Positions 35,061 to 39,475 of a DNA stretch of 64,000 nt are shown here, one piece after another. A program made the translations under genes and the position numbers. The DNA lies in NCBI RefSeq assembly GCF_001598815.1, contig NZ_BCZQ01000004.1, forward strand, positions 62,001 to 126,000. The letters are read 5' to 3'. The notes below the pieces were generated by a model. It was not told the origin of the DNA. It ran no database searches and saw only the letters and a list, made by a program, of their open reading frames with translations. Origin of the DNA: Sphingopyxis terrae subsp. terrae NBRC 15098. Lineage in GTDB: Bacteria > Pseudomonadota > Alphaproteobacteria > Sphingomonadales > Sphingomonadaceae. Each line of letters opens with the position of its first letter. Position 1 is the stretch's first letter.

Positions 35061-35519
35061 TCAGTCCCTCAAATGCAATTTCATGCCGACATGACTCTGC
35101 ACGAAGCCGAGCCGGGCGTAGAAGCGGTGCGCGGCCGTCCGTGTCGCCGATGATGTGAGCTGGACGAGTTTGCAATCGCGCGCGCGGCACTGTTCCACCG
35201 CCCAAAGGATCATCTGCTCGCCCAGCCTTTGGCCGCGCAGGTCGGCGGCGATCCGCACCGCCTCGATCAGCCCGCGCCAGCTTCCAACAAAAGAAAGCCC
35301 CGGCAGGAAGCTGAGTTGCATCGTCCCGATTACGCGGCCATCGAGTTCCGCTGCAATCAGCCGTTGGTTCGGGTCGGCGTCGATCGCCTCGAACGCGGCA
35401 AGGTAACGTGGGTCCGAGGGATCGACCTCACGCGCCGGCGGGATCGTGTCCTCCGCGAGCATGGCGAGGATGGCGGGAAGATCCGCTGCCGTCGCGTCTC
35501 GAAGGATCAGGCCGCTCAC
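35061..35519 (-). CDS. GNAT-family N-acetyltransferase
   Basis: This 152-residue acetyl-CoA-dependent acetyltransferase has the core signature [18 protein letters not shown] (motif A, acetyl-CoA pyrophosphate loop) and [16 protein letters not shown] at the C-terminus. It starts at GTG 35519, which overlaps the mccA stop by 4 bases (GTGA), placing it inside the carboxylase operon. It may acetylate an amino acid or an operon protein; acceptor unknown. Confidence 0.85.
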
Positions 35520-37354
35520 TCGGCGGCCTCGATCTTCGCGAGCAGAGCCTCGACCTGCACCTGCGCCCCGGCCGCAGCGTTGAGTTCCGCAACGATGCCG
35601 TCGAAGGGCGCGGTCAGGCTATGCTCCATCTTCATCGCCTCGAGCGTCAGCAGCTTCTGACCCTTGGTCACCTTGTCGCCCGCGGCGACGTCGACCGCTA
35701 TGATCTTGCCGGGCATCGGCGACAGGATCGCCCCGTCGCCCGCTGCGCCGCCGGCGCCGCCCGCGGCCCGCCAGGGCGTAAGCTGCCACACCGCGCCGCT
35801 TTCGGCCACGAGCATCGCGGGGGCGGGCTCCTCCGCGCCGGGGCCGTGCAGCGTCACGTCGACGCGCTTGCCGTCGAGCAGGAAGGGCGCGGTGCGCACG
35901 TCCGGCGCGTTGAGACGGAAGCCTGACTGCAGCGAGCGGGGAACCATCGCCATAGCGGCGTTTGTCAGTGCCTGCTCCGACGGCATCGGCTCGGCGGTCA
36001 TGCTGTCGCCGTCGCGGCCGATCAGCCCGGTATCGACCGTGCCCGCAACGAAATCGGGATGGCTGAGCGCGGCAATCAGAAAGGCCGAATTGGTCTTTAC
36101 CGGCCAGATCGCGCTGTCCTCCAGCATTTCGGCTAGCATTTCGCGGGCTTCATCGCGGTCGTCGCCATAGGCGATCACCTTCGCGATCATCGGGTCATAG
36201 AAGGGCGACACCTCCGCGCCTTCGTAGACGCCGGTGTCGATGCGGCCGAGATGTTCGGGAAGCTGGAACAGTTCGAGCGTGCCGATAGAGGGCAGGAAGC
36301 CCTTGGCCGGATCTTCGGCATAGAGGCGCGCTTCCATCGCCCAGCCGTTGATCGCCAGTTCGCCCTGCGTCAGCGGGATCGGCTCGCCCGACGCCACGCG
36401 CAGCTGCCATTCGACCAGATCGACGCCGGTGATCTCCTCGGTCACCGGATGTTCGACCTGCAGGCGTGTGTTCATTTCCATGAACCAGATGCGGTCGGCG
36501 CGGAGGCCCTCGCTGGCGTCGGCGATGAATTCGATCGTCCCTGCACCGACGTAGTCGACGGCCTTTGCGGCGCGCACTGCGGCGGCGCACAGCTCGGCGC
36601 GCGTCGCTTCGTCCATGCCCGGGGCCGGGGCTTCCTCGATCACCTTCTGGTGGCGGCGCTGGAGCGAGCAGTCGCGCTCGAACAGATGGACGACATTGCC
36701 GTGCGTGTCGCCGAACACCTGCACCTCGATATGGCGCGGGGTGAGGATATATTTCTCGATCAGCACATGATCATTGCCGAACGACGCCGCCGCCTCGCGC
36801 TGGCACGAGGCGAGCGCATCGGCGAAGTCCGCCGCGGTATCGACCTTGCGCATCCCCTTGCCGCCGCCGCCGGCGACGGCCTTGATCAGGACGGGATAGC
36901 CGATCTGCGCAGCCTGTTCGGCGAGGAAGGTCGGATCCTGATTTTCGCCCATATAGCCCGGCGTCACGGGCACGCCCGCCTCGGCCATCAGCTTCTTGGC
37001 GGCGTCTTTCAGGCCCATCGCGGTAATCGACGAAGGCTTCGGCCCTACCCAGACGAGTCCGGCATCGGCGACCGCCTGTGCGAACTCGGCGTTCTCCGAG
37101 AGGAAGCCGTAACCCGGATGGATCGCCTCGGCGTCGGTCGCCTTGGCGGCGGCGATAATCTTCTCGCCGACCAGATAGGATTCGCGCGCCGGCGAAGGCC
37201 CGATATGCACCGCCTCATCGGCCTCGCGCACATGCAGCGCTTTCGCGTCGGCGTCCGAATAGACCGCAACGGTGCGAATGCCCATCTCGCGCGCGGTGCG
37301 GATGATACGGCAGGCGATTTCGCCGCGATTGGCGATGAGGAGGGAGGAGATCAA
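35516..37354 (-). CDS. mccA: Methylcrotonyl-CoA carboxylase, biotin carboxylase/BCCP subunit
   Basis: This 612-residue subunit carboxylates biotin with ATP and bicarbonate for the leucine pathway. It has the biotin carboxylase N-domain (SSLLIANRGEIACRII), ATP-grasp loop AVAGGGGKGMRKV, the catalytic MEMNTRLQVEHPVTEEITG and a C-terminal biotinyl lysine in EAMKMEH. A propionyl- or general acyl-CoA carboxylase is possible, but the partner's MccB-like sequence favours methylcrotonyl-CoA. No ATG fits. The family start aligns with TTG 37354, which overlaps the DUF559 stop and follows GGGGAGGA supplied by the inverted repeat at 37361. Confidence 0.88.
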   Translation of the reverse strand: MISSLLIANRGEIACRIIRTAREMGIRTVAVYSDADAKALHVREADEAVHIGPSPARESYLVGEKIIAAAKATDAEAIHPGYGFLSENAEFAQAVADAGLVWVGPKPSSITAMGLKDAAKKLMAEAGVPVTPGYMGENQDPTFLAEQAAQIGYPVLIKAVAGGGGKGMRKVDTAADFADALASCQREAAASFGNDHVLIEKYILTPRHIEVQVFGDTHGNVVHLFERDCSLQRRHQKVIEEAPAPGMDEATRAELCAAAVRAAKAVDYVGAGTIEFIADASEGLRADRIWFMEMNTRLQVEHPVTEEITGVDLVEWQLRVASGEPIPLTQGELAINGWAMEARLYAEDPAKGFLPSIGTLELFQLPEHLGRIDTGVYEGAEVSPFYDPMIAKVIAYGDDRDEAREMLAEMLEDSAIWPVKTNSAFLIAALSHPDFVAGTVDTGLIGRDGDSMTAEPMPSEQALTNAAMAMVPRSLQSGFRLNAPDVRTAPFLLDGKRVDVTLHGPGAEEPAPAMLVAESGAVWQLTPWRAAGGAGGAAGDGAILSPMPGKIIAVDVAAGDKVTKGQKLLTLEAMKMEHSLTAPFDGIVAELNAAAGAQVQVEALLAKIEAAE

Positions 37355-37797
37355 AGCCGGTCCTCCCCGGAACGGGGAGGGGGACCATCCGCAGGATGGT
37401 GGAGGGGCACAGGCGATTTGCCTTGCCGTTCTTTGATCTTCATCGCCCGTTCCTTGCAAACGTCTACTATCCGCGCCATCGCGCTCTCCAGACTCGTCAT
37501 GATCACCGTTGCCGGCACGCGCAGCGTAGCGACATGCTGCGACTTCAGGAAATCCGATCGGGCGGCGTCACTCCGCGCCGCCTTCTCGCCGTCATGGGCC
37601 CGCCCATCAACCTCGATCGCCAGGCGCACCGCCGGACAATAGAAGTCCAGAATATAAATACCCGCTGGATGCTGGCGCCGAAACTTGAAGCCACCGGGTC
37701 GTTCCCGCAAAACCCGCCAGAGCATCCGTTCGGGAAGGCTCATCTCGCTGCGCAGTTTGCGGGCACGTTTCAGCGTGTCTCGGGGGCCAGTGATCAC
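37351..37797 (-). CDS. DUF559 / VSR-like endonuclease inside an inverted-repeat element
   Basis: The protein has 148 residues from GTG 37797; ATG (Met19) is an alternative. It has the DUF559 signature: LPERMLW, FRRQHP, YILDFYC, and IEVDGRAH with E62, D64 and H68 of a PD-(D/E)xK fold. This family is related to very-short-patch-repair nucleases, but cellular function is not established. The inverted repeats flank it, and residues 130-146 are translated from the left repeat. The stop codon overlaps the mccA start. GGAGG inside the right repeat, 10 bases before GTG, may be its ribosome site. The interior seems less GC-rich than neighbouring genes. Confidence 0.8.
   Translation of the reverse strand: MITGPRDTLKRARKLRSEMSLPERMLWRVLRERPGGFKFRRQHPAGIYILDFYCPAVRLAIEVDGRAHDGEKAARSDAARSDFLKSQHVATLRVPATVIMTSLESAMARIVDVCKERAMKIKERQGKSPVPLHHPADGPPPRSGEDRL
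37361..37410. repeat. Left 50-bp inverted repeat of the DUF559 element
   Basis: This 50-bp arm pairs with 37803-37852 in inverted orientation at 48 of 50 positions; the differences are in the tip at 37370-37371. It contains two internal palindromes (CCCCG-GAA-CGGGG near 37365-37377 and CCATCC-GCA-GGATGG near 37385-37399). It encodes the last residues of DUF559 and the GGGGAGGA before mccA. Confidence 0.92.
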
Positions 37798-37802
37798 CGG
37801 GA

Positions 37803-37852
37803 GTGCCCCTCCACCATCCTGCGGATGGTCCCCCTCCCCGTGTCGGGGAGGA
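37803..37852. repeat. Right 50-bp inverted repeat of the DUF559 element
   Basis: This is the inverted partner of 37361-37410 (48/50). On the minus strand it ends GGTGGAGGGGCAC, giving a GGAGG 10 bases before the DUF559 GTG. It begins 24 bases after the mccB stop. No target-site duplication is evident outside either arm. Confidence 0.92.
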
Positions 37853-37876
37853 TCACTATGATCCGTCGGCCCATCA

Positions 37877-39475
37877 TCACATCCTGAACACGCCGAAGCC
37901 GCGGTCTTCGACCGGGGCATTCAGCGTTGCGGAGAAGGCCAGCCCGAGCACATCGCGCGTCTGCGCCGGATCGATGATGCCATCGTCCCACAGCCTCGCC
38001 GTCGCGTGATAGGGATTGCCCTCATCCTCATATTTCTGGCGGATCGGTGCCTTGAAGGCTTCGGCCTCCTCGGGCGTCCATTTGTCGGCGTCGCGGTGGA
38101 CCGTCGCGAGCACCGACGCCGCCTGTTCGCCGCCCATCACGCTGATCCGACTGTTGGGCCAGCTAAACAGGAAGCGCGGGCTATAGGCCCGCCCGCACAT
38201 GCCGTAATTGCCCGCACCGAAGCTGCCGCCGATCAGCACGGTGATCTTCGGCACCGTCGCGGTCGCGACGGCCGTCACCAGCTTTGCGCCATGCTTGGCG
38301 ATCCCTTCGGCCTCATATTTGCCGCCGACCATGAAGCCGCTGATATTCTGGAGGAAGAGTAGGGGAATGCGCCGCTGCTGCGCCAGCTCGATGAAATGCG
38401 CGCCCTTGACCGCGCTCTCGCTAAACAGCACGCCATTGTTGGCGAGGATCGCGACCGGGATGCCCCAGATATGCGCGAAGCCGCAGACGAGCGTGGTGCC
38501 ATAGTTCGCCTTGAACTCGTGGAACTCGCTGCCGTCGACGATGCGCGCGACGACCTCGTGCACATCATAGGGCGCGCGCACATCCTCGGGGATGATGCCG
38601 TAGAGCTCTTCGGCATCATATTTGGGCGGACGCGGGTCTTTCATCGCGACGTCGAAGCCATCGTCGGCCCCGAAGGTCGACACGATATCGCGCACGATGG
38701 TCAGCGCATGTTCGTCATTCTCGGCCAGATGATCGACCACGCCCGACTTCTTCGCGTGCAGGTCGCCGCCGCCCAGATCCTCGGCGCTGATCTCTTCGCC
38801 CGTCGCGGCCTTCACCAGCGGCGGGCCGGCGAGGAAGATCGTACCCTGGTTGCGCACGATCACCGTCTCGTCGGACATCGCGGGAACATAAGCACCGCCC
38901 GCGGTGCAGCTGCCCATCACGCAGGCGATCTGCGGGATGCGTTTCGCCGACATATTCGCCTGGTTGAAGAAGATGCGCCCGAAATGGTCGCGGTCGGGAA
39001 AGACCTGATCCTGATGCGGCAGGTTCGCGCCGCCGCTGTCGACAAGGTAGATGCAGGGCAGGCGGTTCGCCTCGGCAATCTCCTGCGCGCGAAGATGTTT
39101 CTTCACCGTCATCGGATAGTAGGTGCCGCCCTTCACCGTGGCGTCGTTGCACACGATCATCGTCTGCTTGCCCGACACACGGCCGATGCCGGCGATCATC
39201 CCGGCGCCCGGAACCTCGCCCTCATACATGTCGCCCGCCGCGAGCTGGCCGATCTCGAGGAAGGGCGAACCCGGATCGAGCAGCCGCTCGACGCGCTCGC
39301 GCGGCAGCAGCTTGCCGCGGCTGGTATGCCGCTCGCGCGACTTTTCGTTGCCGCCCAGCGCCGCTTCAGCAACGCGGGCATAGAGCGCGTCGCGCAGGCC
39401 GCGATTGTGCGCGGCGCGGGCCTGGGTCTGCGGATCGTCGGGATTATATTGCGTCGAAAGGACGGGGGCGCTCAC
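37877..39475 (-). CDS. mccB: Methylcrotonyl-CoA carboxylase, carboxyltransferase subunit
   Basis: This 532-residue subunit transfers the carboxyl group from biotin to 3-methylcrotonyl-CoA in leucine breakdown. Hallmarks are [20 protein letters not shown], the oxyanion [36 protein letters not shown], and the C-terminal [18 protein letters not shown] with GGEQAASVL. These fit MCCB more closely than propionyl-CoA carboxylase. It is the first gene of the operon, divergent from the M13 peptidase gene; no LiuR-like site is seen in the 145-base gap. Confidence 0.92.

Follow-up and report, generated by a model that had tools for sequence, protein, structure and literature searches.

DUF559 nuclease genes framed by inverted, REP-like arms in Sphingopyxis, and a suggested nuclease-driven counterpart of REP systems

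A DUF559 gene between inverted arms at a carboxylase junction

We describe a predicted nuclease gene of the DUF559 family (PF04480) that lies between two inverted arms in a 64-kb window of the genome of Sphingopyxis terrae subsp. terrae NBRC 15098 (contig NZ_BCZQ01000004.1, positions 62,001 to 126,000; the window is the whole stretch of DNA that was analyzed, and all positions refer to it). The arms, at 37361-37410 and 37803-37852, are 50 nucleotides (nt) each, match at 48 of 50 positions (96% complementary) and are spaced 392 nt apart, and the open reading frame (ORF) that they enclose was assigned to DUF559 by a profile search with an E value of 3.1e-24, all of which agrees with the original prediction. 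This pair is at the top of the inverted-repeat list of the 64-kb window, the sole longer listed pair being only 70% complementary, and the alignment of the left with the right flank of the locus (L002) gave a score of 45.5, compared with 13.0 for the best of 20 shuffles. It had also been claimed that the repeats contain palindromes. Each arm, folded on its own as single-stranded DNA, indeed forms two hairpins at −15.1 kcal/mol, a value equaled by none of 200 shuffles. In the arm beside the biotin-carboxylase gene (37361-37410, forward strand) the outer hairpin is at 37362-37380 and the inner hairpin at 37384-37400, followed by GGAGGGGCAC; in the second, inverted arm (37803-37852, reverse strand) they are at 37833-37851 and 37813-37829, respectively. 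A described RNA family was rejected as the identity of the repeats, because tRNA was the sole match in the window in an Rfam scan at gathering scores.

The predicted gene (37351-37797, reverse strand) encodes 148 amino acids from a GTG codon at 37795-37797, just inside the right arm. The open frame is uninterrupted through both arms, and another candidate start, the ATG at 37918-37920 inside the upstream gene, would extend the product to 189 amino acids. Because the open frame spans the arms and its TGA stop (37351-37353) lies beyond the arm next to the biotin-carboxylase gene, that arm is part of the DUF559 reading frame; the stop overlaps the following gene at its possible TTG start (37355-37357). 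Both neighbors are codirectional with the DUF559 gene. Upstream is a carboxyltransferase subunit gene (37877-39475, reverse strand), conserved in 74 of 80 genomes, and downstream is a biotin carboxylase subunit gene (35516-37357, reverse strand). The match of the corresponding profile models to these flanking genes upholds the location that had been predicted, the exact names mccB and mccA being those of the original prediction.

The PF04480 domain covers 37456-37773 on the reverse strand (residues 50-155 of the 189-amino-acid frame) and has kept the invariant residues: D51, E62, D64, G65, H68, R80, and R93 (148-amino-acid numbering) are present in the window protein and invariant in 56 aligned relatives. 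A structure model of the protein reached a predicted local distance difference test (pLDDT) score of 88.5, and its Foldseek matches were 3hrl, a DUF559 structure (E = 3.3e-6), the homing endonuclease I-Bth0305I (3r3p; E = 1.3e-3, probability 1.00), and, more weakly, Vsr (1vsr; E = 0.39). The modeled fold and the catalytic-type residues (invariant D, E, D, and H) are consistent with a nuclease of the Vsr/I-Bth0305I type. Anti-phage defense was also considered, and PADLOC gave weak matches only (mREase_II, 7.2e-8; DpdF, 0.0015). Weak Foldseek matches of the model to proteins of the mitochondrial ribosomes in Toxoplasma and Tetrahymena (E of 9e-3 or higher) suggest the same fold there.

The junction between the carboxylase genes was surveyed in the 30 best-matching relatives of the 74 genomes with the upstream gene, the window's own locus included. 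A 26-bp empty junction was present in 6, a window-type DUF559 gene in 5 (own locus included), a gene of another DUF559 subfamily in 2, and other inserts in 17. The window gene has dN/dS values of 0.06 to 0.12 in 8 of the 10 pairs among five sequences, the remaining two pairs being one with a single change and one saturated; dS comes close to saturation in several pairs. Within each window-type copy, the two arms are nearly identical though synonymous sites are far diverged between copies. Judged from these sequences, the gene appears to be an old resident under purifying selection that is conserved between species and does not look freely mobile. The original prediction had taken the same gene at the same place with diverged arms as the sign of ancient vertical inheritance; this sign is seen only in part, the place being shared in 5 of the 30 relatives and the arms within copies having stayed nearly identical. 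The other inserts at this junction (window 37351-37920; loci L098-L127) are mostly small ORFs, and the junction, with its varied inserts, therefore looks like a hotspot for small genes.

Framing, fixed sites, and dispersed copies of the arms

Framing was scored by aligning the left flank of a locus to the reverse complement of its right flank, and a locus with a score of at least 20 was counted as framed; off-centre windows and the best of 20 shuffles per locus were used as controls. PF04480 was detected in 70 of the 80 Sphingopyxis genomes searched, and the 132 loci of the genus (92 + 40) are the better-scoring among the matches listed. In the first batch, in which 88 of the 92 loci were scored and four with short flanks were dropped, 74 of 88 DUF559 loci were framed, compared with 11 of 164 among off-centre windows and, for the best of 20 shuffles, 1 of 88 loci. 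The second batch gave 35 of 40 (off-centre, 3/78), and a phylum sample gave 16 of 30 (off-centre, 1/60). For named genomes, a set which partly overlaps that of the genus (L198 / G032:C24; L219 / G064:C1) and in which 76 of 80 loci were scored, four likewise being dropped, the figure was 64 of 76 (off-centre, 0/138), and the framed loci include those of Magnetospirillum, Lysobacter, Microbulbifer, and Rhodanobacter, as well as metagenome bins labeled Neisseria and Desulfarculus. Among nine loci hand-picked from 45 matching records of a plasmid collection, seven reach a score of at least 20, including one from Deinococcus. The inverted arms around the window gene are thus no local oddity; DUF559 genes are usually framed by arms that resemble repetitive extragenic palindromic (REP) sequences.

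A 400-kb stretch of genome G072, chosen for its two DUF559 genes, contains six inverted pairs with a score of at least 25 and arms 150-1500 bp apart. Both pairs with arms less than 1 kb apart sit at the two DUF559 genes, and the remaining four have arms separated by 1.3-1.5 kb; a control with shuffled blocks contained no such pair. At locus L072 (1405-3318), the DUF559 domain and a following FAD-binding domain share one open frame, a possible read-through or fusion via the right arm.

Clustering of 89 of the 92 loci, the three without the sequence motif being set aside, yielded subfamilies that are single-copy per genome in the fetched genus set: 23/23, 13/13, 10/10, 9/9, and 8/8 in the largest clusters. 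The fetched clusters each show a recognizable arm type; in cluster c5, 0 of 5 loci have arms at the threshold. Similarity of the arms tracks identity of the proteins (Mantel rho = 0.591 over the 73 loci scoring at least 20; largest of 500 permutations, 0.119). Cluster c6 has two sites, with 7 and 6 loci, and the other fetched genus clusters are each at one site. For c8, a protein search at 70% identity or more found one c8 place in each of 24 genomes, and the outer flanks were homologous on both sides in 253 of 253 locus pairs. The c8 site lies between a GatB/YqeY gene and dnaG in an annotated record, and a DnaG motif was found in the flank at all 23 c8 loci that were fetched and at 7 of 13 c6 loci; among the 32 best-matching named relatives, 28 have it too.

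Among same-genome pairs of DUF559 proteins, 0 of 502 exceed 50% identity. An IS-like mobile gene was rejected on the grounds of single copy, fixed site, and absence of similar same-genome pairs; a multicopy gene element at unrelated sites, as expected of an insertion sequence with miniature inverted-repeat transposable elements (MITEs), was not found among these loci. The claim that the gene-bearing element is a mobile, multicopy unit accordingly finds no support in the fetched genus loci: there is one copy per subfamily per genome at one site (two for c6), and the window gene has the marks of an old, selected resident. Complete homogenization of the arms by frequent conversion is unsupported in the 9 of 23 c8 loci viewed, because the left arm continues with CCTGT and the right arm with CATGT.

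Copies of the arms are also found away from the genes. The window's genome has two DUF559 genes, the second of which (L001) is likewise placed between inverted arms of a different type. The exact palindrome pattern of the L001 type is present only at the two ends of L001 in the 4.08-Mb assembly. The core of the window type, searched as an exact pattern, occurs seven times in the same genome, twice at the window gene and at five other sites, and these five are inverted pairs without a DUF559 gene, the inner hairpin being altered in some. In the genus, the c8-type pattern is present in 62 of 80 genomes and the c6-type pattern in 60 of 80. Twenty fetched gene-less pairs are 96-109 bp long with dissimilar spacers, and some are orthologous to one another; 16 of the 20 have the sequence C[CA]TGT at their left inner end, the same as in the c8 gene unit. 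One pair was tested for folding and forms one long hairpin (z = −8.45).

The spacing of inward pairs was counted on contigs with at least two matches among those listed, G016 being left out; for the second of two lists, the count covered those contigs that have a DUF559 gene or a short pair. Inward pairs no more than 120 bp apart carry no gene (at least 41 and at least 5 in the two lists), and those 300-600 bp apart enclose a DUF559 gene in 5 of 5 and 6 of 6 cases on the contigs examined; no inward pair enclosing some other gene was found on these contigs among the matches listed.

The number of repeats was compared with the presence of the c8 gene in 78 genomes, G064 and G010 being set aside. 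The median count of c8-type repeats was 11.5 in 24 genomes with c8 and 2.0 in 54 without it (p = 5e-6, uncorrected for kinship), and counts of c6-type repeats did not differ by c8 presence (p = 0.24). The c6-type repeats are commoner with c6 than in genomes with neither subfamily (p = 2e-4), and the sum of both types had a median of 0 in the 10 genomes without detected DUF559 versus 14 in the 70 with it (p = 7e-6). One intergenic site holds c8-type, c6-type, or CTCTCCCC-type repeats or a short hairpin-like stretch, depending on the genome; a single hairpin is present there in the window's genome (G000) and a full unit in its close relative G077, whose carboxyltransferase is 99% identical. Occupied and empty alleles were aligned at two places with target-site duplication in view, and the boundaries were variable. 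The original prediction had looked to solo arms, empty sites, and many copies with a central DUF559 gene as support for mobility; gene-less arm copies are dispersed and empty alleles exist, but the gene units are single-copy.

Comparison with known systems and rival explanations

The closest likeness is to the REP doublets forming hairpins (REPINs) and their REP-associated tyrosine transposases (RAYTs; also TnpA-REP, REPtron). As described in passages of PMC3116915 and PMC3733652, REPINs are inverted REP doublets with a poorly conserved spacer, intergenic and dispersed, and according to these and passages of PMC8266576, one fixed enzyme gene lies between the cognate repeats. Both features recur here: dispersed inverted doublets with a weakly conserved spacer (at least 41 and at least 5 short pairs, and the 20 of 96-109 bp), and a single-copy, vertically kept enzyme gene per repeat family, with one cluster at two sites. 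The framing, the dispersed gene-less copies, and the empty alleles support the predicted resemblance to REP-associated units in which a nuclease stands where the Y1 transposase would be. However, the enzyme of REPIN/RAYT systems is an HUH-type Y1 transposase, whereas here it is a PD-(D/E)XK-type DUF559 protein, and no Y1 transposase gene framed by the repeats was found. The conserved GTAG tag of those systems is also lacking: GTAG is absent from the window arms and the c8 arm pattern, and in those other arms that do contain it, such as the left arm of L001, its place varies. Copies are fewer as well, with tens or fewer per exact type per genome. Because the defining transposase and the tag are both missing, we class the window system outside RAYT. 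A RAYT acting in trans as the general driver was rejected, since the Y1 transposase PF01797 was detected in 15 of 80 genomes and undetected in 65, the window's genome included, and among the 24 c8 genomes it was seen only in G007, G036, and, weakly, G047. PMC3733652 describes CGTC-tagged REPs that are said to have no dedicated transposase, as here; their tag and sequence differ, and the passages on them make no link to DUF559. No link between DUF559 and repeats was found in the titles and passages of the literature searched, a weak negative given that bioRxiv was outside coverage, and DUF559 has no occurrence in PMC3710099.

These results suggest that DUF559 nucleases and REP-like palindromes are widespread partners, the window locus being one instance, in a nuclease-driven counterpart of REP systems. 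On the sequence evidence we lean towards a trans-acting DUF559 protein that cuts the arms and, through repair, spreads or maintains REPIN-like units. For each subfamily a genome would have a single nuclease gene in a fixed position, enclosed by two inward-facing arms, and arms of the same kind would also lie away from it as inward pairs of about 100 bp that carry no gene, similar to REPINs. The nuclease would recognize its own arm (the hairpin and its G-rich tail) and nick or cut it, after which repair or recombination would copy REPIN-sized units into other hairpin-like intergenic sites and keep the arms alike. The gene-bearing unit would thus supply in trans, as a RAYT does for REPINs, an enzyme with the fold of Vsr and the homing endonuclease I-Bth0305I. 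REP-like GC-rich palindromes are common in the genus, where a Y1 transposase was found in 15 of 80 genomes only, and a conserved nuclease framed by matching arms offers both a candidate engine for such repeats and a candidate role for DUF559. It also becomes testable whether REPIN-like populations can be maintained by repair or homing instead of HUH transposition, as does the way in which distinct nuclease-repeat pairs succeed each other at one locus.

Several observations weigh against this reading. In the phylum sample, 14 of 30 loci fall below the framing threshold, and in the first genus batch the flanks of different loci match one another in 99 of 264 pairs, which we put down to recurring arm types. 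One stop codon lies inside the match in 4 of 24 c8 genes (in G074, within the domain), and G064 and G010 hold broken or partial c8 copies. Gene and arms are linked, so that inheritance of the two together could account for the correlation between arms and proteins. The genome G060 still has 11 repeats of both types although DUF559 was undetected in it, and many c8-type repeats are present without a c8 gene in G052 (31), G008 (25), G022 (25), and G028 (19). The preference within genomes is modest (p = 0.028), c8-type repeats outnumbering c6-type repeats in 16 of 22 c8-only genomes and the reverse holding in 9 of 14 c6-only genomes, and the correlations across genomes are uncorrected for phylogeny. 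Between G000 and G077, either a deletion or an insertion could have produced the difference, and both the binding and cutting of the arms by DUF559 and the route of copying are steps that we infer.

An alternative that seems unlikely to us is that DUF559 is a homing gene, in which a free-standing homing endonuclease persists at, and spreads into, a single conserved junction for each subfamily through recombination via the flanking genes; the arms would be the site that it recognizes or its edge, and the repeats found elsewhere would be by-products or of other origin. I-Bth0305I, which has a Vsr-like catalytic domain, is the second-best fold match, and the small stand-alone gene, the single copy per subfamily, and the fixed site, whose alleles can be empty, occupied, or differently occupied, would all fit. 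However, the gene-less pairs with identical arm ends, the two spacing classes, and the dependence of the number of dispersed repeats on DUF559 are left unexplained. I-Bth0305I is a phage intron enzyme and is not known to be framed by REP arms.

It is also conceivable, with a rather small chance, that a Vsr-like repair nuclease resolves or restrains hairpin repeats or their mismatches, being needed where repeats are numerous and using its own arms for autoregulation. Purifying selection on the host gene and the presence of Vsr among the fold matches, weaker as it is (1vsr), are in line with this. So is PMC12907096, in which VsrA of Caulobacter crescentus, a protein of the same DUF559 domain family, is reported to be responsible for the SOS response upon loss of a solitary cytosine methyltransferase, an in vivo tie to the DNA-damage response; the words "inverted repeat" have no occurrence in that text, a difference from the loci studied here. 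A policing role leaves unexplained why the gene is positioned inside matching, subfamily-typical inverted arms and why a genome has several subfamilies, each paired with an arm type of its own. Passive co-occurrence, in which GC-rich hairpins (terminators or attenuators) gather wherever a short gene has been inserted in an operon, whether or not it belongs to DUF559, agrees with the 17 of 30 relatives that have other inserts at the carboxylase junction and with the commonness of REP-like hairpins in these genomes, but is very improbable, since the off-centre and shuffled controls rarely reach a score of 20, the inward pairs in the contigs examined never held another gene among the matches listed, and the closely framed genes in the 400-kb scan of G072 are DUF559 only.

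GIY-YIG genes at the dnaG site

About 37 genomes have the left flank of the dnaG site with neither a c8 nor a c6 gene beside it, and other occupants of the site were surveyed in 20 of them. A GIY-YIG gene was found in 12 of the 20, with an open frame in 11 and a Pfam E value of 1e-15 for the one tested. These loci (L348, L349, L351, L352, L353, L355, L356, L357, L358, L363, L365, and L367) lie beside the GatB/YqeY-like left flank, and the fetched stretch ends short of dnaG in all 12; the remaining 8 genomes have the DnaG motif and no GIY-YIG gene. In 11 of the 12 loci the GIY-YIG gene is framed by a different arm family with the core TCTCGACTTCGCTCGA, which recurs as pairs in several other fetched loci. 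Two of four GIY-YIG loci taken from 35 records of the plasmid collection score 20 or more. GIY-YIG and its arm family are therefore a possible second nuclease-repeat partnership.

A broader and doubtful proposal, which we put forward tentatively, is that small stand-alone nucleases of two unrelated folds, the Vsr-like DUF559 and GIY-YIG, form a large unrecognized class of REP drivers. Each would have its own REPIN-like palindromes, which would spread when hairpin-like intergenic sites are cut and a REPIN serves as the template for their repair, and the pairs would displace one another at operon junctions such as those upstream of dnaG and between the carboxylase genes. If this were true, many proteobacterial REP families would be RAYT-independent.

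Nuclease genes of both kinds, DUF559 and GIY-YIG, are located within conserved operons. In Sphingomonas plasmid records, sufB and sufC have a DUF559 gene between them (L377, 1480-1890), and rnc and era have a GIY-YIG match between them (L369, 1501-1770).

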